Part shown: positions 4,022 to 62,200 of the stretch, piece after piece
Numbering within the stretch: position 1 is the stretch's first letter
How the letters are laid out: every line of letters begins with the position of its first letter
From: Agelas oroides
Taxonomy: Eukaryota > Porifera > Demospongiae > Agelasida > Agelasidae
Direction of reading: 5' to 3'
NCBI GenBank assembly: GCA_949130485.1
Contig: OX422194.1
Location: 8,211,273-8,275,272 of the forward strand
Length of the DNA stretch: 64,000 nt
Notes under the pieces: generated by a model
Databases searched by the model: none
What the model was told of the DNA's origin: nothing
The model's input: the letters and a program-made list of their open reading frames with translations, nothing else
Position numbers and translations under genes: made by a program

Positions 4022-4693
4022 GTAAGTTGTTATTTCTTGGCAACTGATAATACAATCAACACAAATGTACAGTTGTACATTTTATTAACCCCCAGTGTTC
4101 CAGCTTCAGGCAGTCTCCTGCAGGTGATTCAACTGCCCACTGTGGTAATGTTGAAACATGCTAGCCTCATTCCCAAGCTTTTTGTTGCTTGCAAGCAAAC
4201 GACGGAAAGCTTGGCGGAGTCTGGGAACGAGGCTAGCATAGTGACACAGAGTTCCTCAGCCTCAGCATAAAAGGTAACTCTTGTAACTGTGTTAACCTGA
4301 GTAAGGCCCACACTAGTTGAGTCGAACTGCATTGGAGCATATAGTGTGGGTCATTGGAGCATCATACATGGAAACCCACAGGCATGCCTATAATGTATGT
4401 TCAGCAAGTTGTCTCTTAGCAAACTCAATATCACATTTCACAGTGGTATTTTGTAACCATGGAGAAACAAGCTATGGAGTATAGGAATTAGCAGCTGCCT
4501 AAAATGCTAATGTACTGCACACATGAACCATGGAAACAATTGTAGTTCCCAAGCTCAAGTTTCAGGTCTGTATACCTGTAGTTAATCTACATTAAAGTGG
4601 CATATATAGCAGTCATGTGTTTTTGGCAAAGTGACATCACAAATTTATCAAGGTGTTAGGTACTTGCTTGGAAAGAGTGTATTGTTAACAATC
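4022..4693. other. Intergenic region between Ig-FN3 genes A and B
   Basis: No exon seen apart from the hairpin element at 4162-4235. Presumably carries the gene B promoter; no clear TATA box or other promoter element was recognised. Confidence 0.4.
4162..4235. mobile_element. Hairpin MITE, TAGCCTC family
   Basis: Starts TAGCCTCATTCCCAAGCTT and ends with an imperfect reverse complement (CTGGGAACGAGGCTA). It shares these ends with many other short hairpins in the window. No long target duplication is obvious here, but GC/GC bases extend the palindrome. Confidence 0.7.
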
Positions 4694-18270: not shown

Positions 18271-19408
18271 CAGTAACTAATGAACTGTGCATATGTTTAC
18301 TATTTTTATACCCCTCACACAAAATATATATCTTGCAATAACTACAATGAACTAGACATATACTGGTTGTATGTCGGTCTCAGATGCAATAAAATCAATC
18401 CCCCTCTAGCTTTGTACAAGAGAAATAATTCCACATGTAACAGTAAATGACCACACACAATCATTAACCCTAACTCTAGCTCCTCATACTTCAAGTAACA
18501 GAAGAATTAAGGGTTGCGTAGACTCTCGTACCCAGACCCTACCCTCTCACAGGGAGGCACATGCAGGCTGGGCATGAGACTGAGGGGTATACGGCTAGGG
18601 GTGTTGGTGAGGGTTTATAGGCTCAGACCTGTACCCTATTGTCATATATAGCTCCATACACGTGCAAAATTAATCTATTTGAAGGCTTCGGAATCAGAGT
18701 GGTCTAACCAAAGATAAGAGGGTGAAGGCTGGAATAACACAGGGAGCTTTAGTGGCCCTTTGGGAGCTAGCTAGCCTCGTACCCAGGCAATGTGGTTGGT
18801 TTTTCCTCCGACTATGTGGCCTGGGTACGAGGCTAGGAGCTAGCCCACTACGACTCTGAGCCCTTCGTTTGTTGTCTATAAATCACTTCTGCCAGACTAT
18901 ACACAAGGTACGTATAGCCACATCCTATTTTCAAATATTACATTTGGATAATTAGAATATTCAACTAATTAGAGTTACTATAATGTTCATGTACTGCGTG
19001 AACCATCAGTCAGTTGGATAAATAACCCACGTCAAAAATGATGGTGCTATTAGGCTGACAAAACTTGTAGTACAACAATTTTGCAATATAAAATGTTTCT
19101 AAGGGTGTTGAGATGTGGAAGTATTTTGAAGGAATCACATGACCCAGGACAAGAAGTTGCGAACTTCACCATCACATTTACCCCAGAGTGTGGATGAGTG
19201 TAGCCGGCCAATGTTTTTACCAGCAATGGTAATCAGTGAATTACACACACTTTAATATACAACATGGGTAGTACATGATATGAAATACAGCTGAATGTTG
19301 GATGATTGAATGTGCGGTGATTCAATACTGACTGAGAGAAGAGATGTCCTACATAATAAGAAATGGTACATGGGTTGAGGTCTGTTCCCAGTGGACTAAA
19401 AAATTGAA
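18271..19408. other. Convergent intergenic region Ras / INPP4
   Basis: 3' UTR of the Ras gene (AATAAA near 18386) and presumably the 3' UTR of the minus-strand INPP4 gene. Apart from the hairpin element at 18772-18835 I see nothing further. Confidence 0.5.
18772..18835. mobile_element. Hairpin MITE with 9-bp target duplication
   Basis: A 64-bp palindrome, TAGCCTCGTACCCAGGC to GCCTGGGTACGAGGCTA, flanked on both sides by GGAGCTAGC (18763-18771 and 18836-18844). Confidence 0.9.
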
Positions 19409-41140
<21,732 letters not shown>

Positions 41141-41352
41141 CTGTCAAAGGTGATCGGTAACTTACTAACTAAACAGTCCCTTTCCCATGCGCCACTCCCA
41201 CAAAATGTAAAAACCCTGTATTATCAACAGAAAAATTAACAGTCACGTGAGCTTGGTAACTCCCGGCGGCGCGGCGGCACGGCCCGCCCCGCCACGCGCG
41301 ATCTCGCAGTCTTTTGCTTGCTGCAGATGCAGTAGTATGCATGGTATACAAG

Positions 41353-41468
41353 TAGTCTCGCAAGCCAGACCCAACCAACCCCAGCGCGGATCGCTTTCAG
41401 TATCACGCACGGGGATGATACTGAAAGCGATCCGCGCTGGGGTTGGTTGGGTCTGGCTTGCGAGACTA
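41353..41468. mobile_element. Hairpin MITE with 10-bp flanking repeat
   Basis: A 116-bp near-perfect palindrome TAGTCTCGCAAGCCAGACCC to its complement. GGTATACAAG is present on both sides (41343-41352, 41469-41478). It lies upstream of the INPP4 start. Confidence 0.9.
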
Positions 41469-41608
41469 GGTATACAAGCTGCTCAAGGTAAAGAGAGTGG
41501 ACACAAGCTATCAAAGACTAGAGGTGACGAGGGCCTGGATGCGCTGCAAGCAATTGAAGATTGCAAAGTGGCATGCATTTGATGCATTTTGCACATCCAA
41601 TTTGAAAG

Positions 41609-42583
41609 TCAGTTAGTATACATATTAATCAGTAGAGCTGCCATTACAGCAAACGAAACCACTCCTAAAACCTGTAGGCCTGAATCGGGTGCATTTCTAC
41701 CTCCCACAACTTCACTAGAGCTAACTTGCGATGAAACACCAAACAGTTGTCTCTGCGACTCGGAACTCGGTATTGCTCCTTCAATCCTGAGCTCCAACCT
41801 CTTCAGGCATTCTTCCATATTGTGCAGAGAGGACCCCAGTGCAGCTAAATGACGTTCACACCCCTCAATATTCCCTTCTTGACTGTCACCACCTTTTCCA
41901 TCAGCTTTACTCTCCCAGTGTGTTTGCAGACCTTGCAGAAAACTTTCCAAGTGGTTCATTTTTTCTGCTTGCTTTTGGTTGTGCTTCCTGACTTCCCTCC
42001 GAAGAAAAACATGGGAACCAAGAAATCCCAACAGAGCACCCAAGACAGACCCTAGGCGGGAGTAGTACTTCATCCTCTCCGACTGTGCCCTCTCCCTTTC
42101 GTGAGATTCCTGTATTGCGTCACTTAGGCTCTCGAAACATTCTCTCTCGCTTTGTTTGTACTCTTCCAGTTTAGAGCTCAAGGTTTGCTCCTGAAAAAGA
42201 AGCGTCTCTTCTTCATTGTTAATTGCCTGCAGAGCTAAAACATCTCTTTTATGTTCCTGGTACACCTGTGTTTTCCTTGTGTAAAGGTTTTTCAGCTTTT
42301 GTTGGATTTCTTCATAGCTGGCGAAGACCTCTTGGAGCTCGTTTCTCCATCTTCGAAGCTCCTCCTTCCTCTGTTTGACAAGTTTCTGAGCCTCTAGCAC
42401 ATCAGAGTGGCCAGTCAGCTGCTCAGTGATTGACTTCAGGTGGATCACCCCTCTTGAAACGGTTGAGTACCTCCTGCAGAGGCAGAGGGCAATTGGTGGC
42501 ATCATGATGACGTAATGTGTAATACTTGCAACTTTCGTATAATTAGAAATTCCGGTTCGACCCATGCGAGTTGGCAAACACAA
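41609..42583 (-). CDS. CCDC51: MITOK/CCDC51-like mitochondrial inner-membrane protein
   Basis: Single exon, 324 codons from ATG 42583; the methionine pair at 42505-42500 is the likelier start because it begins an Arg/Ser-rich mitochondrial presequence (CLCRRYSTVSRG). Residues about 55-170 form a heptad-rich coiled coil. RMKYYSRLGSVLGALLGFLG (about 178-197) matches the conserved first transmembrane hairpin of CCDC51, and a second helix (VLGVVSFAVMAALLI) ends the protein. In mammals CCDC51 is MITOK, the channel-forming subunit of the mitochondrial ATP-sensitive K+ channel; the function is transferred by similarity. It starts 145 bp (or 223 bp) from the divergent YTHDC1 gene. Confidence 0.82.
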   Translation of the reverse strand: MCLPTRMGRTGISNYTKVASITHYVIMMPPIALCLCRRYSTVSRGVIHLKSITEQLTGHSDVLEAQKLVKQRKEELRRWRNELQEVFASYEEIQQKLKNLYTRKTQVYQEHKRDVLALQAINNEEETLLFQEQTLSSKLEEYKQSERECFESLSDAIQESHERERAQSERMKYYSRLGSVLGALLGFLGSHVFLRREVRKHNQKQAEKMNHLESFLQGLQTHWESKADGKGGDSQEGNIEGCERHLAALGSSLHNMEECLKRLELRIEGAIPSSESQRQLFGVSSQVSSSEVVGGRNAPDSGLQVLGVVSFAVMAALLINMYTN

Positions 42584-42728
42584 GGGAAGGTCATTGTCTG
42601 CACTGGGCGCTTGCTGTTATAGTGTTAAGGTGGGGCGACTGGTCTACCTCTGATAAAAGACGGATTGATCCATTTCTCTAAGTTCTCTCCGCGATCTCTT
42701 CTCTCGAGGCAGTCGTTCGGGACAGAAG
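42584..42728. promoter_or_regulatory. Putative bidirectional promoter CCDC51 / YTHDC1
   Basis: Two divergent starts lie 145 bp apart with no room for separate promoters. TCTCCGCGATCTCTTCTCTCG near the + strand start is pyrimidine-rich. No TATA box recognised. Confidence 0.5.
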
Positions 42729-45700
42729 ATGGCGGAGGAAGACACTAAAACAAAGGAATCGCCTCAGGGCATCGTCTCGCGTCATTCAACAACTTCTGAA
42801 GGTGATTCACGCACCACTCTACTGACATTTATAAATTTGTTCTATAAAAAAGAAAGGCAGTTTACAGGAGGGTGCGATCCTTGAGAAATTTTACTTTTAT
42901 CACCATGGATACAAAGGAGGTATCACCAAATTAAGATTTAGATGTTTTGAGGCAAAATAGAGGAAAGTGAAAATGCTGCCAGTCACTGAGAATTGAACCC
43001 AGGACACCTGGCTTTTGCCACCAGTGCTCTGCCACTGAGCTACGAGAACCGGACAATTTTGCCTCGTAACAACTCAATCTCTATTTCCAACGTGAGGCAA
43101 GATGACCTTAGCAGGGACCACCCCATTGCTTGAGCCAACTCACTAGTTTGGCTCCCAGATCCTCCCAGTACAAGGAGGGAGGAAAGAGTCTGGTGAATAA
43201 CTTGGCACTGGCACAGATCCACGTTATTTCAATCTGGTAAACTTTGTTTTTAGGTCTTTGAACTTAATTGGTAAATCACTATTCCAAATTTCAATATTTC
43301 ACACGTATTCAAAATGGAACAAACCAATCACGATACAGAATGATGGCACTCATGGCAAACTACTTCCTGTACACTCGTAGAACTCGTGTTAGCCAATGTG
43401 GCCTTCTTTCTCTTATCAACACTGATGCCAGGAATGCAGCCGTGGATCCGTGCTAGTATTGAGATACTCACCAGACCCATTTCTCACTCCGCCTCTTTCA
43501 CTGAAGGGTCTGTGAACCAAACTACACTGTACCAACTGAGGGCCATTGGGCAATAATAGCAGTAATTGTGAATAAGACGGTGTTACATACACTTTATTCA
43601 CAGGCTTGGATCAGGAAGCAAATTCCTTGGCCTCCTCCAAACCTACACTAAACAAACCCGGCTCTCGCTCTCACTCCCAAGACGACACCCCCCTTGTTGA
43701 CAACCTTGCCACGACACACATCACAGATGAACGCTCCAGAGAACCAAGGTTTAGCGAGAGTGAGGAAATTGTCGTGGTAGATGAACTGGGCCAGGGTGTG
43801 TTGAACTCCACAGAACACGATACTCCTTATCGCATGACGAGCATATCCTCGGAGGACCTATTAGCTGGGGATGGTGAGGAGGGAGGAGTAGGTGCGGAAC
43901 TTCACCCAGAGGACCCCGACTTGGAATTTGCACTGGAAGAGTCGATGGACGAGCAGCAATTTGAAGTGGTAGATACGGTCGATCCTGTGGAACCTCAGGC
44001 GGAGGATCATAGCGGTTTCCAACAGGAATGCACAGGTAAAATGTCTTGTACAAAATCGATAACAATATTGGTCTCGTTCCCAGATTCTCAGTATGGTACA
44101 CAAAACTGTGGGGTCTCACTGAGGGTCTGGGAACGAGACGAGAGTAATGTTACACCACAAGGGCTGTATCTATGAGATATTGCCCAAATGGCAAGTACAA
44201 CAACTACTTTGTGACACATTTCTGAGCGGTGCAGTTCTCTGTGTCAGTATACAGCTACAGGTAAAACAGTGTGTTGTTATTCTTAGCTAGTTTTCATTCT
44301 GTGCATGTGAGATCAGAGGTATTACATCCCATGTATAATGTCTCTCAACACAAGAAATACAACCGCCTTTGCTTAGTATGGCAAATGTGGTGTAAAGGGA
44401 CACTTTGATCCACCCACGCAACATGCCACACGTGTGATAATAGCGAGTTGTTTGTAACCGGTGTGCATGTGCCAAGTATTACACCACATGTGTATATGTG
44501 ATAAGCTTTGCAACTGCCTAAGTTATTGTTTTGTTTGAGGTATGTATTATTGTTAAGTTTGGAAATTGGCGGAGATTCTGGAATTCATTTACTCGGCCCA
44601 GGCCCCTCCAAAGAAATCATACAGGGGAGGGAGGGGACTAGGCAGACCCCGCCTAGCGATCCCCAATCTGCTGGCCTCTTATGCATTCCTTGTGTGAGAT
44701 CATATGGTAGCTAGCTGGCAGCAGCAGTCAGCTGCGGTTGACAATGGTGCTACACAATTTTCCATGTGTTGAAGATCGGTAATGGACAAATGTGATTCGT
44801 CTAACTGAAATCGAGACAGCTGACTTGACTTGGGTTGTGTGGAAAGTGTGACATCTGTGACTAGGCCCTTTCAAAGTGATTTAGGAATGAGGTTGCTTGT
44901 CACCAGCTTAATTAGGCTGAAATCACAGACAAAATAAGCATTGCCAAGAGATGTCAATATAGGCTAGGCCTGGGTCAAATACTGCTCTCTGATTGGTCAA
45001 ACCAAATATGGTCTGTTGTGGCTAATCTCATCTTATCAATCTTGTTGCCTGTCTAGCAGAAAATCAACATTCTTTGCCCTCCTTTACATTTGGACCAGAA
45101 TCAGTCTTCACAAGAACCTCGAAAGGTGTTTGTGGTGTGGTGTTGTGAGGGTAAACAGTCAGGGTTTCATACAGGATTTTAATTTGAGGGGAGATAATGA
45201 CTTGGGAAGCCTGGATCTCTAGGGAGTGTTTGGGGGCCTGCCCCACCCACCTCCCCCCAAGTGGGTATTTGCATTCTCTGAGGTTGAGTTTTAAAGAACA
45301 CACTGCACATGTACCGTACTCACGTTGTTAAGCACATATGCTTTCTGCTCAGGAAGGAAGTGAGCGCCTAACAGCGAGGTGCATTTGGTGTGCTTTGTTT
45401 AGAGTTACGCACTAACCACACACAGACCAGTACTTAATAGCGAATATGCTTTCTGCTCAGGAAGGAAGTGAGCGCCTAACAGCAAGGTGCATTTGGTGTG
45501 CTTTGTTTAGAGTTACGCACTAACCACACACAGACCAGTACTTAATAGCGAATATGCTTTCTGCTCAGGAAGGAAGTGAGCGCCTAACAGCGAGGTGCAT
45601 TTGGTGTGCTTTGTTTAGAGTTACGCACTAACCACACACAGACCAGTACTTAATAGCGAATATGCTTTCTGCTCAGGAAGGAAGTGAGCGCCTAACAGCA

Positions 45701-48700
45701 AGGTGCATTTGGTGTGCTTTGTTTAGAGTTACGCACTAACCACACACAGACCAGTACTTAATAGCGAATATGCTTTCTGCTCAGGAAGGAAGTGAGCGCC
45801 TAACAGCAAGGTGCATTTGGTGTGCTTTGTTTAGAGTTACGCACTAACCACACACAGACCAGTACTTAATAGCGAATATGCTTTCTGCTCAGGAAGGAAG
45901 TGAGCGCCTAACAGCGAGGTGCATTTGGTGTGCTTTGTTTAGAGTTACGCACTAACCACACACAGACCAGTACTTAATAGCGAATATGCTTTCTGCTCAG
46001 GAAGGAAGTGAGCGCCTAACAGCAAGGTGCATTTGGTGTGCTTTGTTTAGAGTTACGCACTAACCACACACAGACCAGTACTTAATAGCGAATATGCTTT
46101 CTGCTCAGGAAGGAAGTGAGCGCCTAACAGCGAGGTGCATTTGGTGTGCTTTGTTTAGAGTTACGCACTAACCACACACAGACCAGTACTTAATAGCGAA
46201 TATGCTTTCTGCTCAGGAAGGAAGTGAGCGCCTAACAGCGAGGTGCATTTGGTGTGCTTTGTTTAGAGTTACGCACTAACCACACACAGACCAGTACTTA
46301 ATAGCGAATATGCTTTCTGCTCAGGAAGGAAGTGAGCGCCTAACAGCGAGGTGCATTTGGTGTGCTTTGTTTAGAGTTACGCACTAACCACACACAGACC
46401 AGTACTTAATAGCGAATATGCGCTTCACATTGTGTGAGTACAGTAATTCTTCATTGCCAAGATTGGAGGGAATTCTCAGGGTCTCACCCCCTCACCCCTC
46501 CATTTTTACTCCTTGGGTAACAGTGTATCAGTCAATTTGTCACATGTGGTCAGAAGCAAGAAATCGTGAACCTACGATTTGGGTTGATCAAAAACAATGA
46601 TTTTTTGCATGGTTGTTTAAATGACAAAAAAAAAAAGAGCCAATCTCACCCAGCGTCCAGCGTAGTAGCTTTATCAGAAATACCTCCGAATTCGAGTGAC
46701 ACAAAAATTTTAGTCCATATCTCACAGAGGAAGTCCAACACAATTGACGTTACATAAAACATGGTTCATTGACCACATTATAGACCTTATGCAATACCTC
46801 ACGTAACCAAACGTAAAACGGACAGTGGACGGAAATCCGGATACTACGCTGCCATTTTGAGTGGCAAGGAAGACCGCGGTCTATGGAGCTTAAGTACAGC
46901 AAAGCACTTTGCGAGCTCACTGCGTCAACGAGGCATGCAGGTAAGCTTATTCACTTCGGTGAGCGTTAGATCCTGTTGAGACCTTGTGCATTCTGGGTGT
47001 AAATGTAAAATCACTTCTTGCGCTGGTGAGAAAGGAGCTCGCAAACTGCTCCGCTGTACTTAAGCTCCATAGACCGCGGTCATTTTTGCTACTCAAAATG
47101 GCAGCGTAGTATCTGGATTTCCGTCCACTGTCCGTTTCACGTTTGGTTACGTGAGGTGATGACGTCAATTGCATAAGGTCCATACACACATGTATGTTAC
47201 CCAAATCTATAGTTGCTAAAGTCTTCTAGCCTGCTGGGTTCACCTAGACTTGTAGTATGTTACCCAAGTTTATCAAATTTGCTTGACCATCTACTCGCTC
47301 AGGCTCGCCCCAGCATCTCACTAATATGTTACCCAAGTGTGGGGCAAGTGGGCTCTGTTACACTGTTTGTGTAAAAGTAAGTGTTATGATAGCGTTGGCT
47401 GACTGGTGTTGTCGGTCAGCACATGTTCAGGAGATATGCACATGTTGTGTGCTAAGAAACTGATCTTTTGTGGTCAATTATACTGATTACCGAAACCTGA
47501 GATCGTGTGGTCATGTTGAGGTCACTTGTGTGGTGCCTTGGGATTGTGTTCCTAAGGTAACAGAAATTGTGGTCATATCGGATGCGTTAGTACGCCTCTC
47601 GTGTGCACAAGGAGTTTAGCATGTCAACATGCTAAAGTCTGCGTCGTATGGGACAGAGTGGGAAATTGGGTCACACACGTATGAACAATCAAGGAACCAC
47701 ATCTCCCTGAAAAATAGGCCTAGATGTTATGCAAAGTCACCCACTGCACAGGATGTGTTTCAACCAATACCAGGTTTCACCAGTTGTGCTGGGGTGACCG
47801 GGAGATGGGGACAGCTATGTATGCATAGAGGATACCATTAGGGTACTTGGTGTAATGTGATTTAATTAGGAGCAAGTCTTAATGTTGCATACCCATTTCT
47901 GTGATAGGGTAACACTATACTGTCACTCTAATTACACATGTAGAAGGCACTCCTAACAGTTTGAAAGTAATTTTTTTTCGCATGCTTATAATTAGAATAC
48001 TTTTCTGTAAAATGTTGGTGCTCATTAATTGGAATGTCCATCCCCTCCCCCCCCAGGTGATAGTCCCATTAGTGAGAAGTCGCTAGTAGATCCCTCCGAT
48101 GAGGATGTCAGTAACGATAATGCGGAGAGAGAAGGAGAGAAGGAGGGGGAGAAAAAAGAGGAAGGAGAAGACAAGGAAGAGGGTAACGAAAGTGTGTGTG
48201 TGTGTGTGTGTGTGTGTGCACATGTGTGCATGTTTGTGTTTGTGTTTGTGTGTGTGTGTGCACATGTGTGCGTGTTTGTGTTTGTGTGTGTGCACGTGCG
48301 TGCGTGCGTGTGTGTGTGTCGTTGGGGGGTACTACCTCGAGTTATCAAGCAGTTAGCTACTGGCAGAACCGAGCCATATAGCGGCACTCCTCTGAGCTGA
48401 CATTATGGTACATGTATCCATTTCCCCAGGCAAGAAGAAGAGAGCTATCTCCCCTATTGTCTTTGAAAAGAAAGGCAAGTTATACTTGGGTTGTGCATGG
48501 TTTTCCTGTAGCCAGGTTAGTCTGCCAGTGTCTCGCATGGCTTGGGAAAGTGGATATTGTGCCATCGAAAGCTTAGTCTCGTCCCCAGACCCCACCCTCT
48601 CATGAGGAAAAGGATCTGGTGACTATATTGAGTGCTTCCTTGGTTGTGCGGAGCCAGCAATGTGTTGATTTTTGAATAAGTGAATGATGACATCTTTATG

Positions 48701-51700
48701 ACGTAGCGCTATTTCATTGGCTAGAGTCAAAAAAAGCACTCAACAGTTACCAGACCCTTTTCCTCGTGAGAGGGTGAGGTCTGGGTGTGATGTGCCAGTT
48801 TGATTCACAGGGTTTTATAAACGTAAATAAACCTATGTTCAGAATATCCGTAATAAAAGGGAAGGGATAGGGTAAGGTAATCGCCCCTGCACTTCTCATA
48901 CATGTAAGTTAGGGTAGACTAATAATGACTTGGATCGCTAGAGGGGGTATGTCTCGTGTCCAGACCCCACCTACGAGGGGAGAGGTTCTGGTGACAGGAA
49001 ATTGTTGTGTTTTGTTACACTGTCTGAGGTTGATTCTGAAACCAAGTTGGAGTAAAATGTATGGTCCCGAAGAAAAATACCACTTAGTTGTCACAATTAC
49101 ATGTACTTCTAAACGCTCATTATTGCCAAGATCTTAGGTTAAAGGGTTTCCCCTCTCCTCATGAAACCCCCTGATTTATGTGCCGGCTCATGTGATAGTC
49201 ATGTGACTGCTCTTGAGTACGTTTACTATGGCCCAGTGAGTTCACATGCTTTGACATGTCACATGACATGTTTTTGCAGGGTTTTAATACAATGTTGCTG
49301 ATATCAATTGACAATTTATGCTGAGACAGAAACCTTGTAATTGTTTTCTCTCAGAATCTCACTCCTCTTCAAAGCCAGAGAAAACTGAGAAGTCGGACAG
49401 ATCCAAGTCAAGAGAGAAAAGCAAAGGTATGACCCCACCCCCCCTTCTCAGCCTTTGTTGCTAGGAGTAGGAGTTTTAGTGCAGAGGTGAGGGAGTTGTG
49501 TGAACTGGACCACTTTCACTAACAAATCACAACTTGTGACATATATTGTGGTTCACCGTTTTACAAGGTCACTTTACATGTCAAAGTTATAGCTGAGGTT
49601 GATTGACTGATTGATTGATCAATTGATTGATTGGTTGATTGACTGATTGATTGATCAATTGATTGATTGGTTGATTGACTGATTGATCAATCAATCGATT
49701 GATTGATTGATTGATCAATCAGTCAATTGATGGACTGTTGATTGATCAATCAATTGAATTGGTTGATTGACTGATTGATCGATCAATTGATTGATTGGTT
49801 GATTGACTGATTGATCGATCAATTGATTGATTGGTTGATTGACTGATTGATCAATCAATCGATTGATTGATTGATTGATCAATCAATCGATTGATTGATT
49901 GATTGATCAATCAGTCAATTGATGGACTGTTGATTGATCAATCAATTGAATTGGTTGATTGACTGATTGATCGATCAATTGATTGATTGGTTGATTGACT
50001 GATTGATTGATTGATCAATGGTTGATTGACTGACTGATTGTTTGATTGATTGATCAATGGACTGATTTACCCACCCTGCTCTGACTGACCCTTGTCTGTC
50101 TTCCCTCAGACCACCACTCGGGTCCTCATCGTATTGTGGACAAACTGTTCTCAAACACACGGTACTTTGTCATGAAGAGCAACAACCACGAAAACATTGC
50201 CATCGCTAAGGATAGGGTGAGAATACGTTGCCGTTGCTAAGGGTAGGGTGAGAATATATTGCCATCGCTAAGGATAGGGTGAGAATACATTGCCATTGCT
50301 AAGGATTGTAACTGTTGCAGTTAACTTGTGGAAGCTTAGCTAGTCTAACGACCAGCTGAACCTGCTCTGCAGACATGGCTTGGTCAGTTGCCCCTACAAT
50401 GCTCTTAATAATTCAACTGGTTTGTCCTTTTGTGGTTTTCTCTTAATGTGACGTGTGTTTGGTGTTTCACTCAGGGAGTTTGGTCTACACCACCATACAA
50501 TGAGAAGAAACTGAACAAAGCATACAGGGTAAGCACACACACACACGTGCATATAAGTACACATATACCAACATGCAGTGTACATACATGTATATACACC
50601 TACATGCACATACATCACATATGCACATATCACACACACACACACACATGCATATACAATGTACATACATTCATGTGTACATGTACATGTGATGTACACA
50701 TGCATCCACATACATGTAGATGCATACATCACATATGCACACATCCTATACCTATGCATTTACCTAGACCATGCCTTCTGCCACCTAGAAGCTGAGCACT
50801 ATATTTCAATGGCTGGTTACTTAAGCCCCCGTTTACACGTACTAACTCGGGTTAGTTTAATCCAGATTGGGATCCGGGTTAAAGGCCTCATGTAAACGGG
50901 GGTTGTAGTGATTCAAAACTCCCAGCTGTTACTAGGTATCACTTAATGTACCTATCCTCATACCACCAGGACTGTCGGAATGTGCTGCTTGTATTCTCGG
51001 TGAGAGAGAGTGGACGATTCCAAGGTAAGAGGTTTCTTTTTAATGCTACCAAACTCTCCAAGCTGCCCCATCCCAGTTTGTCCTGGGAGTGAGGCTACCG
51101 TAGTGGTTGTTTTTAATCATCATGTATGTGACAGTCCCGTGTAGACATCGAATGATATTCTGGAGCATATCTTGATTGCCTTCCACACTGCATCACTAAA
51201 GGGGGTGGGAGAAAGGCAGGGGGGGAGTTGGGAGGGAGGGGGGTGGGAGGGGTGCTCACACATGCTTTGTAGGCACATCCAATACATCTACAAGGCACGT
51301 GTGAGCCCAGCCCTTAACAAGGATTTTGAACGCAGATAATTTATGCTACAGAATGATCTTGGATTTCTACTAACACACATATAGATTGTCACATGACAAG
51401 TGCATGGCCACATTCCACCTCGTGAGAGTATGGAGTATGGGCATGAGACCATCCCTCTAGCTTGGTTACACTGTGGTTAAATCATGTTAGCAACAGGCTC
51501 GAATATTTCCGATTTGCTAAGTCCTTAACTCATTTGTCTTCAAGCTGGACTCTCCAGGTGTGTTTCTCCTTCCCTCCCCCCAGGAATAGCTCGTCTGATG
51601 TCTGATTCCCGTCGTGATGGCCCCCACATCCCGTGGGTGCTCCCTCCCGGCATCTCACAGGCACAGCTAGGAGGCGTGTTCAAACTGGACTGGATACACA

Positions 51701-54445
51701 AGTGAGCAGGGTTGACGCTAGCCACGCAACGATTCAGCAAAAATGAATGGCTTGTCACAGAACTAAAAATATTGCAGGAATTATTTAAGTCTGTTGCTTG
51801 TTTAAAGTTTTACTGACAGTTTTGTTTACTGTCAACTGAGGAGTATGAACCAAGAGTTGAGTGTGTCTGAGAGTGCTGGCAAGCACTAGTCTGGGTTCAA
51901 CAGATGCTATTTCTCTCTAAGCTACTATTGAGAGTACTGTGTGATAGCGATCTGGAAAGAAAGCGTTTTGATTGTCCTGTGGGTGGAGTAATTTGTCCTT
52001 AGTGATGATAGTTCAAGAGTAGTCTCGTGCCCAGACCCCACCCAGCTCATGCCGAGGAGAAGGGGTCTGGTGTCACAAGTCCAAATCCTTGGGCTAGCTC
52101 CAGAAGCGTGGAGCGGCCAATCAAATCGCAGAGCAGCGTTTATTGGAATAACTAACGCGGAAGCGAGAACAAGTACTTCAATAGTACTGCTCAAAGCATG
52201 TTATGAGATTCATTATCCAACACTGAGCAATTTGTAATTCTACACTAACAATTACAAGGCTTCAACACTTGACACCAGACCCTTTCCTCGTGAGAGGGTT
52301 GGGTCTGGGCACGAGACTAGTTCAAGAGACCAGTTTCAAAACTCTGTATGGTGTGCTTTATTTAGAATTGCCACTCCTTTTGTTTGTTTATTTTCCTAAC
52401 AGAGGTACTCTGGAGTTCTCTGCCTGCCAAGACCTGAAGAACCCCTGGAATGACAACAAGCCTGTGAAGATTAGCAGAGATGGCCAGGTCAGTTATTAGT
52501 ACGTGTTGAGGCATGCAGTGTTATAGCCTTGTCCCTAGCCTGTCCCTCCCCCCCTCCCCCGAGGAGACACATGCACAAAATATTCCATTATATGCAGTGT
52601 GTGCTACTGTTGATTGAGTGAGAAAGCTAGCGTATGATGAGGTTTTCTTTTTGATCCAAAACCTTTCAAGGGATCAAATTAAGCCGTCTACAATCACTGG
52701 ACTGGACTAGTGGACTGGACTGGTAGACTGGACTGGTGGACTGGACTGGTGGACTGACATTAAAAATCATTTTTACGCTTTCTAATGAGACTCACTCGCC
52801 TGTAGGGTTGCATGATGATGCATAATATTACCCCCAAAACAGCTCTCTTCTTGGACAGACTGACTTTATGCCAAAGCAGTAAATTTTTGATGGCAATAAC
52901 CACTGTGCATAAGCTGGGCTTCATTTCCAAAAATTGTCAGGGTAGGAGCAAAAGTGATCTAACGGTTAGTCAAATATTAGAGGGAGCAACATCGTATGTT
53001 GTTGGTCCTCACAGGACAACTGACATTTGGTAGTCTAGATGATGCTTGTACGAAGGAACAAGTATTGCACCGAGCATGCGATCAGATTGCTCATTGTATA
53101 TATACACTTGTTACAATGTACAGTATGGCGTAATGACAACTAAAACATTTACCAAACTACCAAACCTCATCTGAAGTCTTAGGAACTGAAGTCAGGTTCC
53201 GATTGTCTACACTACATCATAGAGGAGAAAGACATTACACTGGGTACAAAGACCCTCATGAATACTGTATGAGTAGTGAGTTATTTGCTCTGGGACCATG
53301 TATGTAGCTAGAAACAAAGCTGCAGGGCTTCCACACAACCCAACAAGTGAGTGAGTGTCATTGGAAAGCATAAAAATGATTTTTAGTGTCAGTCCACCAG
53401 TCCAGTCCAGTGATCGTAGACGGCCATCAAATTACTGCGGCAATCAGGTTTAGTCCCACAAAATTTACGTACCTACTGATTAACAAAGTGCGAGTACGCT
53501 TGCTGGTTTCTACTGGGCAGAAATGTCTTGAACATGACAGAAAATCTCGTCAAGTTGTATGGTGTGGTTTTGGGTGCACTCAGTGGTGGCATGGGCGAAG
53601 GGAAGCCAGGAAACGAGGCAACATCGTCCGTCCAAGTTCCTGGAATGCAGGTAGCGGAAGTAGAATCACTCATGACTGCACGAATGGCTGATCTAGAGGG
53701 AGAGAGAAGAAACTGCAACTGCCAGTTGCAAGAGCAAGAGCGGTGCCATCCAATCAAATTAAAGAAGCTGTTGAATTCTGCTCTCTGATTTGATTGGCTC
53801 CAATGTAGTTGATGCTCTTGCAATTGGAAGTTGTGAGAACTTGGGAAGAATGCTGTATTTCAGTTGTGCAATTTAAGAGCTTTCACTTCTTGTCTGGGCA
53901 ATGAATCTGCTGCTCTGATTGGTCACTTTTTTCAGCCGCTTGTGTGTTTGATTTTTCCTCAGGAGGTGGAGCCGACTGTCGGAGAGAAGTTGTGCAGACT
54001 GTGGCAGAAGATAGAGACAGACAGTGATACCCTCTCCGGCCACCCCAACCATCACTCAAGCGGCAGTGTCAGCCACTCACCCTACATGCCCCACTATCCC
54101 CCTCGACACCACCACCATCCATCCTACCCTGCCCCCTATCCCTATTTTGCTGGATACCCCATGGGACCTCACATGTTTGCAGACCGTCGTATGCCCCCCA
54201 TGCCCCCCCAGCCCTCAGCAGTCTACCCCACCCCCAGGTTAGGACCCTACAGGCCTCCTCGTCCGTGGTGGGGCCTTCCACACCCTCCACCCCCCCACAT
54301 GCAGCCTCCTCCTCTTCCTCCTCCGACTACAACTAGAGACATTGTGACCCCGCCAAGGAATAGCTCGAAAACTTATTCCTACTCGCAACAGCGTCCGTCC
54401 AATGCGAAACAAAAGCTTAATAAGGAGGAACAAGATTCTTCATAG
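42729..54445 (+). CDS. YTHDC1: YTHDC1-type nuclear m6A reader (549 aa)
   Basis: Exons: 42729-42801, 43604-44035, 48057-48182, 48430-48474, 49355-49426, 50110-50216, 50475-50528, 50970-51024, 51584-51701, 52403-52487, 53963-54445 (1650 nt). The acidic/RS N-terminus (exons 1-5) is followed by the YTH domain (about residues 258-415): [51 protein letters not shown] and [16 protein letters not shown]. The cage residues Trp (GVWS), Trp (IPW) and Leu (QAQLG) are present, so m6A binding is expected. The C-terminus is His/Pro/Tyr-rich as in nuclear YTHDC1. The intron after exon 4 starts with GC (AAG|GCAAGT). The 4-kb intron 2 carries a SINE-like element, the 108-bp minisatellite and palindromes. Confidence 0.93.
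42955..43115 (-). mobile_element. tRNA-derived SINE/foldback element
   Basis: On the minus strand: A box TAGCTCAGTGGCAGAGC, hairpin CTGGT-GGCAAAA-GCCAG and B box GGGTTCAATTC, then a tail containing CTCTATTTTGCCTC. The + strand flank at 43060-43112 repeats tail-like sequence in inverted orientation. The same family occurs at 62003-62250. Confidence 0.75.
44071..44139. mobile_element. Hairpin MITE, GTCTCGTTCCCAG ends
   Basis: GTCTCGTTCCCAGA pairs with TCTGGGAACGAGAC; CTCAGT...ACTGAG extends the stem. It starts 35 bp after the exon 2 donor of YTHDC1. Confidence 0.8.
45341..46420 (+). repeat. 108-bp satellite-like array x10
   Basis: Exactly ten 108-bp units (1080 bp), nearly identical. The main variant site is CAGCGAGG/CAGCAAGG, a CpG change that alternates along the array. 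It lies in YTHDC1 intron 2. Long single-strand open frames are absent. Confidence 0.97.
46782..47182. mobile_element. Long foldback element (about 400 bp)
   Basis: Arms about 46782-46930 and 47025-47182 are complementary (GACCTTATGCAAT, CGTAACCAAACGT, GGACAGTGGACGGAAATCC, ATAGACCGCGGTC). No open frame. Confidence 0.88.
48191..48325 (+). repeat. (GT)n / GTGCAC microsatellite
   Basis: TG-rich run with repeated CACATGTGTGCGTGTTTGTG-type units, directly after the YTHDC1 exon 48057-48182. Confidence 0.9.
48574..48792. mobile_element. TAGTCTCG element, about 220 bp
   Basis: TAGTCTCGTCCCCAGACCCC at the left; GGTCTGGGTGTGA at the right in inverted, decayed form. Internal CTCATGAGGAAAAGGATCTG and its inverse mirror the 52020 element. 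Confidence 0.75.
49599..50065 (+). repeat. TTGA/TGATTGATC tetranucleotide-derived array
   Basis: A higher-order repeat of TTGATTGATTGATCAATTGA units, about 470 bp, in YTHDC1 intron 5. Confidence 0.95.
50529..50765 (+). repeat. ACATACA/CACATAT low-complexity run
   Basis: Degenerate AC/AT repeat with ACATACATGTA-type units immediately after the YTHDC1 exon 50475-50528. Confidence 0.85.
50828..50904. mobile_element. Hairpin CCCCCGTTTACA
   Basis: CCCCCGTTTACACG at the left and CATGTAAACGGGGG at the right, with ACTCGGGTTAG / ATCCGGGTTAAA inside. A separate hairpin family from TAGCCTC. Confidence 0.7.
52020..52319. mobile_element. 300-bp TAGTCTCG element with 9-bp target duplication
   Basis: TAGTCTCGTGCCCAGACCCC at the left, its complement at the right. 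GTTCAAGAG on both sides (52011-52019 and 52320-52328). The interior is unique sequence, not palindromic. Confidence 0.92.
52682..53425. mobile_element. 744-bp MULE-like TIR element with 9-bp duplication
   Basis: Terminal repeats GCCGTCTACAATCACTGG and CCAGTGATCGTAGACGGC, subterminal GGACTGGACTGGT tandem repeats, then a further inverted block (ATTAAAAATCATTTTTACGC). ATCAAATTA flanks both ends (52673-52681, 53426-53434). No transposase frame. It lies in the last YTHDC1 intron. Confidence 0.92.
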
Positions 54446-55978: not shown

Positions 55979-58517
55979 CAAGCGCCAACTTACTGAGGCT
56001 GCCGAGGCTCTGCTGGGAGATATAAAGAAGAAGAAGACCGAGAAGAAGGGAGAGGGAACGCACAAATCCAGCAGTAGTCGTAAGACAAGTAACTGGACAG
56101 TAGTCAAAGTAATATTCCCATGCCGTAGTCGTAGGACGTATGACGAACGAACATTCCCCATTACTTCCAACTGTGGTTTCTATGATGTGAATGTCTAACT
56201 ACAGTGGAACCACCCTAATATTGTGGGGGTTAAAGTTATTTTCCGAGCTCAAGTTGGTAACAGATAACCTTCCTCTTCATAATGTTGCAGTGACCCTAAC
56301 TCAGGGAGAAATAATCTGTAGTTGGGAATTGTTTCTTGTGTCTTGATAGGCAAGGTGCTCTTAGTTTCTGGGTGTTTTTCGTGTGGATGTTTCATGTATC
56401 CCCCCTGCACTCACAGGTCACCATCGCCACAGTGCCGAGGGGGCGTCCTCCTCTTCCTCCTCCTCCCACCGTAGAGAGGCAGGCAGTGGACGAAGTGGAG
56501 AGCGAGAAAGAGAGAAGGAGAGAGAGAAAGAGAAGCGAAGAGAGAGGAGCGGCAGGGGAGAGGAGAGGAAGTCTCGCCATACCAGCAGGAAGGAGAAAGA
56601 GAAGCGGAAAAGGTACGGACTTTCCGAGGCTCGAGCCACTGAAGTTCTAATGTTACACTTTGTCTTTTTGGATGCTTGAAAAGAGAGTTTTTTTTGCTTT
56701 TGTTTTTCTCCAAAGGTCCCGCAGTCGTTCCCGGAGTCCTGGCATGGATTTTGGTGGTGTCCGTGCAGAGACACTGCTTCATGGCAGCTATGCCGACTAC
56801 ATCAAAGAGTATTCCACACGTTCCTCCTCCAGTCACAAGGTACTTGACATGTTCTGGCCTCTTCTCCTCAGCCTTGTATCCCCAGGCCGAGGCCTAGTCT
56901 TATTCCCAGGCTTTATTTTATGCCCAGCCTACCAGGCCACGTCGGAGGAGGAGGCACAAGGCTAGTCCCATCTTTGTGTTCAGACCTAGCTCTGTCCCTA
57001 GCCTCTTTTCCAGCCTCATTTTCAGGCTATCATAGATCCAAGTTTTCAACTGAGCAAGAGCGCATGATGATGTTTCCCTCAACAGCAAAAATGATGTCAT
57101 CATGTGCTGTTGACTGAGCTGTAGCCTCGTTCCCAGGCTGTCCTCCTTAGTGGGGAGAGCCTGGGAACGAGGCTACATTAGAAATATATCACCATCTTGG
57201 CACCAGAGAATGATCAACTATTCCAGGAAGTTTTAAGTCTGTGACATCAAACCACCATCACCACTGGTGGCTCAAAGCTGCACTGAAGCTCAGGATGGGG
57301 GTATCATTGGAGGGACTTGCACTTTCACTCAGACTGTCGAGCACTCTGTTCAAAGGTCCCAGTTGCTATGCACTATACCTCTCTTCTCACAGGCTCCCCC
57401 CTCCATGACAGACGTCAGGGCTGCCTACCAGAAGGCCCTCTCACAAGTAGCATCAGCACTGGCCCAGCAGTCTACACCCAAGGTGAGCTGTAATTAGAGT
57501 GGATTGACAGTAATATCATAATATAGCTCCCGGACCCGAAAGTAGCCTCATACCGAGGCTCCTCCCCAGATAAACGGGGGAGGAGCCTCGGTATGAGGCT
57601 AGGGGAAAGGATGTCTGGTGACTTCCGAGTGCTTTCTTAGTTGTGCTGAGTCAGCTTGTTGATAAGTGTGTAATAGTTAGAACACAAGCTGCAATTTGAG
57701 TGGCCGCTTGCCATGGAATCTGCTCAATCACTTTGCTCCTTTCCTAGTGTGTGTATGACATTGTGCGTGAGTATGTGTGTGCTTGTGTGTGCATGCGTGT
57801 GTGTGCATGCATGCGTGTGTGTGCGCGTGTGTGCATGTGTGTGTATGTGTGTGCATGCGTGTGTGTGCTTGTGTGTGTGCTTGCGTGTGTGTGCATGCAT
57901 GCGTGTGTGTGCGCGTGTGTGCATGTGTGTGTATGTGTGTGCATGCGTGTGTGTGCTTGTGTGTGTGCTTGCGTGTGTGTGCATGCGTGTGTGTACATGC
58001 ATGTGTGTGCCTGTGTGTGTGCATGCGTGTGTGTGTGTGCATGTGTGTGTGTGTGTGTGTGCTTGCGTGTGTGCATGCGTGTGTGTGCTTGTGTGTGTGT
58101 GCTTGTGTGTGTGTGCTTGCGTGTGTGTGCATGCGTGTGTGCTTGCATGTGTGTACATGCGTGTGTGTGCCTGTGTGTGTGCATGTGTGTGTGTGTGTGC
58201 ATGTGCGTGTGTGTGTGTGTGCTTGCGTGTGTGCTTGCGTGTGTGCTTGTGTGTGTGCTTGCGTGTGTGTGCTTGCGTGTGTGTGCATGCATGTGTGCTT
58301 GCATGTGTGTATATACATGCGTGTGTGTGCCTGTGTGTGTGCATGCGTGTGTGTGTGTGTGTGCATGTGTGCGGGTGTGTGCGTGTGCATTACCTTCTCT
58401 GCATTTTGTTACTTTCTTCAGGTGGACTCCAGGGCTTACAAGAAACGTGTCGAGGAATTTCTGGCAAAAACTCGCAATGGTGAACCAATGGGATCCAACC
58501 CTTCCTCCTCCTCCTGA
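55979..58517 (+). CDS. RS/E-rich nuclear-type protein, 3' exons
   Basis: Exons 55979-56079, 56417-56612, 56716-56839, 57393-57482, 58422-58517, all phase-consistent, stop at 58517. The protein begins (in the visible part) with KRQLTEAAEALLGDIKKKK, passes through a Ser run and an Arg/Glu/Lys-rich stretch (EREREKEREKEKRRERSG) and RSRSRSRSPGM, then a more ordered tail with YADYIKEYS, AAYQKALSQ and YKKRVEEFLAKT. This is the composition of a splicing or nuclear-speckle protein. No start codon with a good context is seen: either the 5' exon was missed, or these are distal alternative exons of the upstream YTHDC1 gene, whose last exon would then need an internal donor. I do not recognise a specific family. 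Confidence 0.6.
57122..57175. mobile_element. Hairpin MITE, TAGCCTCGTTCCCAGGC
   Basis: 54-bp palindrome with consensus ends, in an intron of the RS-rich gene. No target duplication detected. Confidence 0.8.
57543..57601. mobile_element. Hairpin MITE, TAGCCTCATACCGAGGC
   Basis: 59-bp palindrome, TAGCCTCATACCGAGGCTCC and complement around a 15-bp loop. Confidence 0.8.
57750..58392 (+). repeat. 640-bp GTGTGTGC/ATGC compound microsatellite
   Basis: TGTGTGTGCATGCGTGTGTG-type units. The very long Cys/Val and His/Thr frames on all strands are by-products. It fills most of the last intron of the RS-rich gene and ends about 30 bp before its acceptor. Confidence 0.97.
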
Positions 58518-59288: not shown

Positions 59289-62200
59289 ATGATGCAAAAT
59301 CGGGGATTGCTGCTGGGAATGGTGCTAGTTTTGGTGGTGGGGATGGTCGTTTGTGACCCCCAAAGTACAGACTATTCACAGGATGGACACCACCAGCCTC
59401 CTCCTCCCTCCCAGGGTGGACACCACCAGCCCCCTCCTCCCTCCCAGGGTGGACACCACCAGCCTCCTCCTCTTCCCCAGAGTGGAAACCACCAGCCTCA
59501 TCTTCCCCAGAATGGAAACCACCAGCCTCCTCCTCCCTCCCAGAGTGGACACCACCAGCCTCCTCTTCCCCAGAGTGGAAACCACCCGCCTCCTCCTCCC
59601 TCCCAGAGTGGACACCACCAGCCTGCTCCTCCCTCCCAGGGTGCACGTGGACACCACCAGCCTCCTCTTCCCCAGGGAGGACCTCCTCACACCCTTAGAC
59701 CTGTAGCAGGAGGTGAGGGGCAGTGCCCAGCTGGAGACCAGGTGAAGCGGCACTCTGATAGTGTGTATTTGCATGACCAAACCAGAGCCATTGCTAAACT
59801 CAGTTGACATGGTTGTTACATTAATGGGTGTTACACGAGGTAATCTGCTACCAGAGGTGTTTGATAAAAGGTGACACAAACGTAGCCTCGTTCCCAGTCT
59901 CTCCCCACTAGCTCTCCAGGAGAACCTGGGAACAAGGCAATTGTGAACTAGTACCAGTGCTCTGCACAAACATAGTTGAAAGAGCCCTGTTGAGGTACGA
60001 GTGAAGTTCAACTGTGTCCTGCCTCCTTTGGAAAGCTACCTAAATCTTTTCTCTCTCAAATTCATATCCAGCTGACATTACTGTAAGAGTTCTCCAACAT
60101 GATGCACCGACACTGAATGATTTAACTTTAACCTGAAAACCGTATCTACTTCACCCCACTGTTCTAATTTTCCAAACTTTCATATTTCTTCCAGAATTGC
60201 AATCTGTGTACATGGAGGTCTGAACAAGGAGTACCTTACAGTCTGGAGGACTTCAGCTCAAGACAGTTTCACTACAGCATGCAAAACCCTCGCGGATCCA
60301 CCCTCAAGTTCAGTCTCTGTCCTTCTCCAAACTCTACACCAGCTTGCAACAATAACAAGTCCCCCACCTGTCTAGTTGTGCCTGGGGTGAAGCCCACATG
60401 TACGGGGACTCTTCCCCGAGTGGAGCAACTGGAACCCCACATTCCTGGAGAGGGGATCAAGCTGATTTATGAAGAGGGGGAGATTTGTGAGGTCACGAAA
60501 CAACCAAGAGTGACTGTCATCACACTCCCCTGTAACCCACATGCCAACTACAAAGTGCAGCACCTTAATCCAAAGGGAGCGAAGGAAGGGCAGAAGGAGG
60601 AGATCTGTAGGTACTATGTGGAGTTTCCACCTAGTCAGTTTGGCTGTCCTGTGGATACTGGAAGTCTGGTACATAAACGCAAGCCCGAAATCTGGGCAGG
60701 TAAGTAATAATAAAAATCACATTACATTTCCAAGTTCATGCTTTATTGACTTCATTTTTGCAGTTAGTGGATGCTCGGACTCCCTCCCTCGAAGCACCAC
60801 TGCCGACTGCCACTATGCAGCAGAGACCAAAGTCAGCCTTCATGGGCTGAACTTTGACCTCTTCTGCATAGACCCCAAATTGGCGAGTGGAGGTGATATG
60901 ACAATAAATCCCCCTACTACCACTCCAAGGACTACCATGTTGAACACAGCGTTCTGCTCACAGAACTTCAGGAAGCACTACAGTGTCTATGTCGGTCCGT
61001 TTAAATGCAGGGATCCTACAGTACTCTCAGAGTTTGCTGTCAGTTGTATCATTAACGGAGGCTCTGGGAGAGACCTCACTGTTGCCATCAAGAGAGAACC
61101 TGTTTCACCACAGCAGCAGCAGCAGCAACAACAACAAGAACGGACACCTACTGATAGTTGGATGCCAACTGAAGCTGGAGGCATTGTAGCTGAGCTAGAG
61201 CGAGCCATGTCCTTCAAAGAGGCTATTAATTTTCGAGAGAAGTTCAGCAAGTTTGTGGAGCTGGGGGTGGGTGGGCTGAAGAGGGAGATTGACGAGTTGT
61301 ACAGGAGGGCGTTTGCCTCCAGAGGTGTGGGTACATGATATAGTGACATTCCTAGACAGATGATTGATCGTCGTGGGGCGAGCCTGAGCAAAGTACTGAT
61401 CCCACAGCTTGTGTAGAAAGCAGTAGCAAATGCAGTTCTTACCTGGGACACATACCCGCACATGAAGCTAGGACAAGGATCTCTGCTGTCTGAGCCTATA
61501 TAGCCTAACTACCGGTAGTTTCTTTGTCTTGTTCATTTCATTGTCTTTCTCGACATCTAGCCTCTGTCTTTTCTCGAAGTTTCTGAGAATGGGCAAGCGA
61601 CTATGCATATTATATATACACTGGTCGGTCAGTCAATCACATTTTCCACACTAATATAGGACCTGCTCAGGTTCATCCCAATCATGATGTCCATGTTCTT
61701 CCACACTTGTAACGTAACGTGGACCATGTTTTATGAAGGCTATATGCTGCTTAGCCTCATTATTAGCTGCATCATTTGACGAGCATTTCAGTTTTAGCAC
61801 GTACACAACAAGAATACACAGTGCTATACGTTGTTTTTACGTTAGGAACGTCCCCAGATGTGCTGGAGAAGCTGGGTGTTAGCCATGTCAAGGTAACATG
61901 TAGGCTTACTTGCATTTGAGTCAGTACCACCATAGTGTGTTGATTGCCATGTATACTAGCTACCCATCTATGTGCAATTGGTAGCCATTTTTATTAATGA
62001 AGGAATGTAGATGTTATGAGGCAAAAATAGAGGAAAGTGAAAAGGCTGGCGGTCACCGGAAGTCGAACCCAGGACACCTCTGGCTTGAGCTGCCAGTGCT
62101 CTGCCACTGAGCCACTGAGCCACGACAGCCGGACAACCACCAACCCTCACAATCCTGGATTCGATTCTGGCAACTACTGGCCTTTTCACTTTCCTCTATT

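Follow-up and report, generated by a model that had tools for sequence, protein, structure and literature searches.

The window analysed here, a stretch of 64,000 nucleotides from the genome of the sponge Agelas oroides, contains a large number of short elements which fold into hairpins and have the same ends and seemingly unrelated insides. How could such a set of elements arise? According to the original prediction they capture or generate new inverted sequence between fixed ends. The present analysis points to a different answer. It is likely that the loci belong to one very large MITE superfamily of DNA transposons, apparently non-autonomous and of the cut-and-paste kind, that the hairpins are longer elements with the middle lost, and that capture is unneeded.

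The end common to the superfamily is about 16 bases long. The 259 Mb genome (141 contigs) was searched on both strands with a 15-base end, allowing up to two mismatches, and 113,096 matches were obtained as compared to 2,586 for the reversed control. Exact end pairs lying 32–62 bp apart were found at 1,193 places and at 0 places in the control. The density of end matches, about 0.4 per kb genome-wide, means that TAGYCTCG-end sequences are scattered throughout the genome. In the window, ends were present within about 11 bases of where they had been placed, many of them with 1–3 mismatches; the end of the 41353 element (TAGTCTCGCAAGCCAG) has more than three mismatches to the end pattern and was identified by direct reading. 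At least fifteen loci had been counted, and the ends are indeed there, but several of these places are single ends and not closed pairs. End pairing gave 13 closed pairs in the window, some decayed or due to chance, in addition to 41353-41468 and 22185-22687. The limits of three elements were redrawn (44071 to 44069-44141, 18527 to 18521 and 19957 to 19946), and at 48574 a closing end was not found within two mismatches. A literature search with the sequence CTCGTTCCCAG and by topic revealed nothing on this family, judging by titles and abstract openings.

The flanks of these ends carry target duplications of a preferred length. In a sample of 264 kb, an exact 9-bp duplication was observed at 13 of 46 end pairs, where 0.45 is expected by shuffled pairing. 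The same sample had one exact duplication of 4 bp and one of 8 bp (0.2 expected for each), and none among the 46 pairs at the remaining lengths between 5 and 13 bp. Among 20 chosen short elements the exact 9-bp duplication was present in 13, and the rest showed exact 8 bp (one), exact 10 bp (one), 8/9 matching (two), 7/9 matching (one) or no duplication (two). The excess of 9-bp duplications that had to be checked is thus found in the sampled pairs and in the short elements. In the window, where duplications were scored at 13 elements, the exact 9-bp duplications claimed at 18772 (GGAGCTAGC), 22262 (AGGCCTGGG) and 52020 (GTTCAAGAG) were all borne out, and a fourth was detected at 19946 (GGAGATACC). 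The duplications of 8–10 bp reported for 31156 and 41353 are of exactly 8 bp (ATGTACAT) and exactly 10 bp (GGTATACAAG). No duplication was seen in the flanks of the end pairs at 4162, 44069, 57122, 57543, 59883 and 18521, nor in those of 22185. The superfamily therefore has terminal inverted repeats and a target duplication of fixed length, as a MITE does, and the length of 9 bp (sometimes 8–10) is that of a MULE.

The elements of the window, given here by their coordinates on the plus strand, differ in how well their two halves pair. It had been stated that most are perfect hairpins over their whole length, and by ungapped pairing of half-positions this is true for the 116-bp palindrome with 53-bp exact arms at 41353..41468 (55/58), the 59-bp hairpin at 57543..57601 (27/29), the 54-bp hairpin at 57122..57175 (23/27) and the 88-bp hairpin at 22262..22349 (37/44). 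Pairing is weaker in seven others. These are the 75-bp hairpin at 31156..31230 (28/37), the loop of which contains TCGCTTGCAGTA on the minus strand, the 64-bp hairpin at 18772..18835 (23/32), the decayed 58-bp element at 59883..59940 (20/29), the 73-bp hairpin at 44069..44141 (24/36) and, weaker still, the imperfect 74-bp hairpin at 4162..4235 (21/37) and the decayed 62-bp elements at 18521..18582 (15/31) and 19946..20007 (11/31). The statement is untrue of the 300-bp element at 52020..52319, which pairs at 55/150 half-positions and has a subterminal hairpin in its ends. An end of the 52020 subfamily without a recognised closing end lies at 48574..48640, the right limit being arbitrary. What had been listed at 22185 as a separate hairpin element instead forms the left end of a copy of a longer type, 503 bp in size (22185..22687), and the 22262 element with its duplication is nested inside it. 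When the 97 bases of nested element and duplication are subtracted, the copy measures 406 bp. Its long terminal inverted repeats pair, and there is a subterminal hairpin in each. It is closely similar to a copy elsewhere in the genome, L031:1099-1498, with 91.6% identity over 345 bp (22343-22687) and 89.6% identity between 22185-22261 and the end of L031.

That the insides differ completely is a fair impression within the window, but it is false genome-wide for 41353 and 22262. The genome contains 897 first-look candidates for 41353; 40 of them were scored, and most of the matches cover some 90 or more of its 116 bases, with up to 97% identity. For 22262 there are 741 first-look candidates, and among the 40 scored the others show 85–96% identity on the better strand. 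The scored relatives of 22262 are 83–102 bp in length, and such similar lengths point to spread as short units and not to a separate loss of the middle in each copy. For both elements the scored relatives mostly match end to end. The 18772 element has 11 candidates including itself, of which 8 others match near full length at 73–83% on the better strand, with two further 36-base matches at 94%; the kinship of its interior is weakly supported because the shared ends make up half its length. Of the three interiors searched genome-wide two thus have hundreds of candidate relatives and 18772 has few weak ones, and the view that the family is unlike an ordinary MITE family is not supported. Many copies with a common interior, as in a MITE, were found for 41353, 22262 and the L031 end, and weakly for 18772. 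In the sample, 52020 has relatives at L016:6938-7244 and L007:1501-1813, L026 and L023 hold ends related to 57543 above the shuffled level, and 57122 matches the end of L019:703-1298. As judged by sequence comparison, the interiors are several diverged subfamilies and not one progenitor sequence. The candidate relatives of the 22262 and 41353 types number in the hundreds and the scored ones are similar in length, so these short forms have probably spread as short units themselves.

The longer type provides a possible source of the palindromes. L031:1099-1498 is a 400-bp copy with terminal repeats of 114 bp that are 97% identical and have a hairpin inside each, and it is flanked by an exact duplication, CTTTCCCTC, made of C and T only. 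Its 92-base end gave 1,498 first-look candidates, the 40 scored being all 98–100% identical, and four inverted pairs among these end matches span 390–413 bp. L031:1099-1498 has no ORF of at least 60 aa wholly inside, with 3 overlapping it; the 833-bp L021:2765-3597 has three such ORFs wholly inside, the longest of 105 aa. A detailed comparison of the longer type with the short forms was made for one set of variants. Related variants were found at 28 places, which may not all be separate insertions. Of these, 17 carry palindromes, each with a centre of its own, 7 are asymmetric (two variants) and 4 are others. Three templates suffice to write 14 of the 28 as a left arm plus an inverted right arm; the 7 asymmetric copies are templates or matches to templates, and the remaining 7 fit none. 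Microhomology at the joint depends on counting. A tolerant count gives 3.9 vs 0.8, a strict count 1.71 vs 0.91 (P = 0.03), and the strict count with one row anchored otherwise 1.21 vs 0.92 (P = 0.22). It is at most weak, and no support for a repair pathway is drawn from it. Loss of the middle could proceed as follows. The longer type would be inserted by a transposase acting in trans, which is most likely Mutator-like. It would then lose its middle, the most plausible routes being that the gap left by excision is incompletely repaired or that the palindrome breaks, and its arms would be rejoined at a point that differs from copy to copy. The ends, and often the duplications, would remain intact around two arms that match each other, and this would be a hairpin with a seemingly unique inside.

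Much the same picture would result if one arm were rewritten from the other in each copy by fold-back self-priming, template switching or gene conversion, which would create new perfect palindromes between fixed ends. The 17 palindromic copies, each with its own centre, stand beside an asymmetric form having a like left arm and its own right arm, as arm copying would predict. It is also consistent with the variable end positions, at which left and right end agree in 30 of 38 distinct elements vs 11.7 expected (a concordance that fits loss of the middle as well), and with L014:7831 and L019:1911, the arms of which have few mismatches within the copy (about 67 and about 57 positions) vs 82.8% between copies. 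However, since the two arms of the L031 type are near-identical from the outset, deletion alone suffices, and the asymmetric form is readable as the L031 end joined to the other end via the common GGCCTGGGA. We regard arm copying as unlikely. It is likewise doubtful that the subterminal hairpin persists because it serves transposase recognition or protection, its stem drifting while pairing is maintained. Outer and inner stems of the same end score 3.6 on average vs 2.3 when swapped (22 ends), and 14 of the 16 motif-like sites near an end lie 30–41 bases in. But the difference in stem score is modest, the 22 picks include at least two that are no true subterminal hairpins as well as several close relatives whose kinship is uncontrolled in the score, and 40 of 56 motif-like sites are not near an end.

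The enzyme responsible for insertion could be sought among the transposases of the genome. A 9-bp duplication had been taken to indicate a Mutator-like transposase; the duplication, sometimes of 8 or 10 bp, does fit, and we infer a Mutator-like enzyme from it. Among the loci examined (MULE and Merlin matches) there was neither an autonomous element nor a transposase with these ends. There are 119 MULE matches in the genome, from 150 of 194 candidates scored, and within 1.5 kb of the match, none of the three best loci has an end pair that brackets it with an exact duplication. A young MULE family (3 copies compared, about 99% identical) was considered as a partner and set aside, since its only delimited end, the left one, starts GGGATTCGC. 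A transposase of the Merlin (IS1016) superfamily, in place of a Mutator-like one, is improbable. Merlin transposition makes 8–9 bp duplications, which would fit, and Merlin-type transposase frames exist in the genome (23 matches). However, 10 of these 23 loci were inspected over 1.5 kb on each side, and in none do the ends bracket the match together with an exact 9-bp duplication, though at L030 (weak ends) and L035 ends occur on both sides of the match. At 5 of the 10 loci long inverted repeats were seen, and these have other sequences, which speaks against Merlin as the source.

Uptake of foreign or host sequence, inverted between the fixed ends, is very improbable: six of 14 window elements (4162, 18521, 18772, 19946, 41353 and 59883) have no relative above the shuffled level among 194 sampled ends and 18772 has weak relatives only, even genome-wide, but 41353, one of the six, and 22262 gained their 897 and 741 candidates once the whole genome was searched (three of the 14 elements were searched so), the scored relatives match over the ends too, and repeats of about 114 bp with a lost middle probably explain the palindromes. 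Apparent sequence capture would thus get a simpler account, in which long inverted repeats minus their middles become palindromes with seemingly unrelated insides. Loss of the middle would also provide a naturally occurring set of products that ranges down to the bare ends, useful for the study of excision-gap repair.

The extreme shortness of some copies, down to 32 bases, is the unusual part. A 32-bp element has 11 exact copies on nine contigs and a 40-bp element has 12 exact copies on nine contigs, each consisting of two arms of 16–20 bases with nothing between. The flanks of three of these 32/40-bp elements were read and show an exact 9-bp duplication in every case; the two identical 40-bp copies among the three differ in flanks and in duplications. 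It is possible, though less likely than not, that these hairpins move as units. Alternatively, longer elements may have collapsed repeatedly at one self-complementary centre, and the copies beyond the three with read flanks may be passengers in larger repeats. Identical copies are not proof of transposition, as within the 41-bp form all four copies have common flanks and duplications, as do both copies of the 55-bp form, and these were thus carried inside larger repeats. The 46-bp form, and the 53-bp form with three copies of which two have an identical left flank, seem to have been carried in this way too. If the 32-bp and 40-bp hairpins do move as units, they would be, to our knowledge, the smallest DNA transposons. 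The transposase would have to pair two ends lying very close together or act on a folded single strand, and the short forms could serve as a test of the minimum length for a mobile DNA element.

Several known systems resemble this superfamily in part. Ordinary MITEs are derived by internal deletion, and the elements described here are like them in being short and of high copy number, with terminal inverted repeats, target duplications and near-identical copies. They differ in the extreme shortness (32–62 bp) and in the many subfamilies with little in common beyond the end. Angel elements of zebrafish are reportedly short inverted-repeat elements of hairpin shape, as here, for which a fold-back self-priming model is said to exist. 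In the Pack-TIRs of animals, inverted-repeat transposons are altered by gap filling, which is a likeness, and most of them show microhomology at the joint, with a median of 2 bp (PMC8277862). Pack-TIRs hold duplicated host sequence (PMC8277862), whereas none was seen in the three elements searched genome-wide (41353, 22262 and 18772), most listed relatives of which match over the element including its ends. The Tm1 Mutator/Foldback family of root-knot nematodes has MITE-like non-autonomous copies whose inverted repeats vary in length, target duplications of 8–10 bp that are mostly of 9 bp (45 of 53 elements), and arms within one copy that are 93.15% similar on average (PMC3169594). All these are points of likeness. 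The end sequences of Tm1 are different, its arms are largely tandem repeats of 13–15 bp and a Phantom-like transposase-coding copy is known (PMC3169594); here, Tandem Repeats Finder detected in L031:1099-1498 one array only, of 2.2 copies of 12 bp, and arms of short tandem repeats, as in Foldback elements, are absent from this one copy. Galileo of Drosophila belongs to the P superfamily and makes mostly 7-bp duplications, in contrast to 9 bp here (PMC4168063). It is nevertheless similar in its foldback-like arms and in its subfamilies, which keep part of the outer inverted repeat, with 17 of 40 positions identical in every sequence shown (PMC4168063).

The 15-base end TAGYCTCGWNCCCAG is present at the places in the window (C12:8211273-8275272) named by the original prediction; many of the matches have one to three mismatches, and small offsets occur. 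With up to two mismatches allowed, the whole assembly (259,295,671 bases, 141 contigs) contains 56,397 matches to it on the forward strand and 56,699 on the reverse strand, as compared to 1,246 forward and 1,340 reverse matches for the reversed control, a number exceeding chance by far. Pairs of exact ends with a span of 32-62 bp were found at 1,193 places genome-wide and at 0 for the control. At C1:3270065-3270610 there are ten end matches on one strand with a spacing of exactly 59 bp; this array seems to be a short element of the hairpin family turned tandem.

Target duplications were counted in the window and in twenty hand-chosen 10-kb stretches; one of these adjoins the window and the others lie at round coordinates on C1-C9. 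Together they add up to 264 kb, including 5,200 N bases. The sample contains 46 end pairs at most 1 kb apart, decayed copies and chance pairings being kept in the count. An exact 9-bp duplication flanks 13 of them against 0.45 expected from shuffled pairing, and at least 8 of 9 bp are duplicated in 16 against 0.55. Exact duplications of 4 bp and of 8 bp occur once each (0.2 expected for each), and no other length between 5 and 13 bp was found among the 46 pairs. Flanks were also read for 20 short elements hand-picked from the list of exact end pairs (32-62 bp). Exact duplications of 9 bp were seen in 13, of 10 bp in one and of 8 bp in one; two others have 8 of 9 bp, one has 7 of 9 and two have none. 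Independent insertions are fewer than 20, because 11 of these elements fall in copy sets whose flanks are alike or partly so (a set of four, a set of three and two pairs). Among 13 elements examined in the window, four have exact 9-bp duplications, one has 8 bp and one has 10 bp. The predicted 9-bp duplication holds. A 41-bp hairpin with its duplication is also carried as a passenger in a larger dispersed repeat (C1:1026115, 6444024, 6473927 and 10512740).

It had been claimed that the interiors differ completely. Compared within the window they do appear unrelated, but genome-wide this impression does not hold for 41353 and 22262. Several sample elements could be grouped by pairwise comparison. 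Against 194 sampled ends, six of the 14 window elements (named by start coordinate: 22185, 22262, 31156, 48574, 52020 and 57543) score clearly above their shuffled versions, 44069 and 57122 exceed theirs by one point, and six do not (4162, 18521, 18772, 19946, 41353 and 59883). Genome-wide interior searches covered three elements. The search with element 41353 gave 897 first-look candidates, of which 40 were scored; most of these align over about 90 or more of its 116 bases, with up to 97% identity, self excluded. For 22262 there are 741, and the 40 scored, self excluded, show 85-96% identity on the better strand and lengths of 83-102 bp. Judged from these alignments, the interiors of the two better-tested elements can be assigned to subfamilies, and the similar length of the scored relatives suggests that short forms also spread as short units. 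Element 18772 gave 11 candidates, self included. Of the others, eight align over nearly the full length, with 73-83% identity on the better strand, and two match over 36 bases at 94%. This is weak evidence on the interior because the shared ends make up half of the element.

A longer type is represented by the 400-bp element L031:1099-1498 from elsewhere in the genome, which has the exact duplication CTTTCCCTC, made up of two letters only, and arms 97.4% identical over 114 bp. Each of its ends consists of TAGCCTCGTTCCCAGGCC, a stem, a loop with GATCGCTTGCARTAT, the returning stem, which ends GGCCTGGG, and then GAGAAAGAGTCACGTGCGTGACGTCA, which shares the last G of that stem. The window copy at 22185-22687 is of this type (91.6% identity over 345 bp), and the 88-bp element 22262 with its 9-bp duplication is inserted at its left inner stem. 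A genome-wide search with a 92-base end of L031 gave 1,498 first-look candidates; those scored, 40 in number, have 98-100% identity, and four inverted pairs span 390-413 bp. From these copies, the L031 type gives the impression of a MITE that is young and present in high copy number. Several other elements carry, after an end, a hairpin that GGYCTGG or GAGCCTGG closes: long ones with a duplication (52020, L006, L007 and L016:6938), one with 8 of 9 bp (L019:703) and two with none (L015 and L026). In some of them a TCACGTGA-like box follows the hairpin.

The origin of the hairpins was approached through one end plus the motif GCTTGCAGTAT plus the other end, a pattern with 57 forward and 45 reverse matches genome-wide, among which 29 strings at 28 places were analyzed. 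Seven places carry an asymmetric form of 75-79 bases in two variants (four and three), in which the right arm is not the inverted left arm; as read off the sequences, it is an L031 end joined to the other end through nine common bases, GGCCTGGGA. Seventeen are palindromic, the right arm repeating the left in inverted form, and four are neither. The left arms of the 17 palindromic copies are related, in several variants, and their 17 centres all differ; one copy pairs at just 20 of 24 positions. When the two asymmetric variants and the L031 arm serve as templates, 14 of the 28 places can be expressed as a left arm plus an inverted arm, joined by a short overlap or filler; seven places, which hold other variants, match none of the three. 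The simplest account would be that a long-armed element loses its middle, at different points in different copies, leaving palindromes. Microhomology preference at the joints depends on the counting method: 3.9 against 0.8 expected with mismatches tolerated, 1.21 against 0.92 (P = 0.22) under strict counting with one row mis-anchored, and 1.71 against 0.91 (P = 0.03) once that row is corrected. At the variable positions of the ends, the two ends of an element agree in 30 of 38 distinct elements, drawn from 50 listed places, where 11.7 would be expected. This fits deletion in a parent with two arms as well as the copying of one arm from its partner. Capture or generation of new inverted sequence, as originally proposed, is not supported: two of the three interiors searched genome-wide, those of 41353 and 22262, belong to subfamilies.

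The shortest forms measure 32 and 40 bp. At C1:4414745, two joined 16-base ends make a 32-bp element flanked by an exact 9-bp duplication; C1:4010578 and C1:8754933 hold identical 40-bp elements with differing flanks and differing exact 9-bp duplications. Exact copies of the 32-bp sequence number 11 in the genome; a further 2 copies have one mismatch and 13 have two. For the 40-bp sequence the corresponding numbers are 12, 10 and 13, with 0 for the controls. Either such units move, or collapse recurs at a self-complementary centre, or some copies are passengers in larger repeats.

Duplication length is the one basis of the putative Mutator-like assignment. MULE transposase matches number 119 genome-wide and Merlin matches 23. 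The examination covered ten Merlin loci, 3.3 kb at each of the three best MULE loci and 6 kb at each of three copies from a young MULE family. In none of them do family ends frame the transposase match with an exact 9-bp duplication; L030, L035 and L061 have family ends, some weak, on both sides of the match. The young MULE-bearing family (C1:21930400-21936400, relatives L062-L064) has copies about 99% identical over at least 4.4 kb and the left end GGGATTCGC. L029 (C1:27542247) and L030 (C3:3213488) carry long inverted repeats and frames of about 280 aa for a Merlin-type transposase.

The window also contains a minisatellite that can be read as repeating about 12 residues (EGSADSELVLAV; 27716-28720), a long simple repeat rich in CA/GT with several frames open (57713-58536), and one clear and one borderline tRNA match (30741-30813 and 42983-43045). 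One immunoglobulin-like frame and one fibronectin type III frame were tested at 663-14313, and similar ones recur along that interval, as though a single receptor-like gene family had been repeated.

We consider it quite probable that the elements form a huge MITE superfamily with Mutator-like duplications, whose hairpin forms have probably lost their original centres, and not a capture system. The original observation was largely right; its interpretation stands for a transposon family with Mutator-like duplications but not for capture. Brief literature entries on the end sequence and on hairpin, foldback and sponge MITEs yielded no description of the family. In its working, the family resembles three known systems, a likeness that need not mean membership in any of them. 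Tm1 of root-knot nematodes, which has a Mutator (Phantom-like) transposase, comprises MITE-like copies with inverted repeats that vary and duplications of 8-10 bp, mostly 9 (PMC3169594); animal Pack-TIRs involve gap filling with short microhomology (PMC8277862); and Galileo has subfamilies with just part of the outer repeat in common (PMC4168063).
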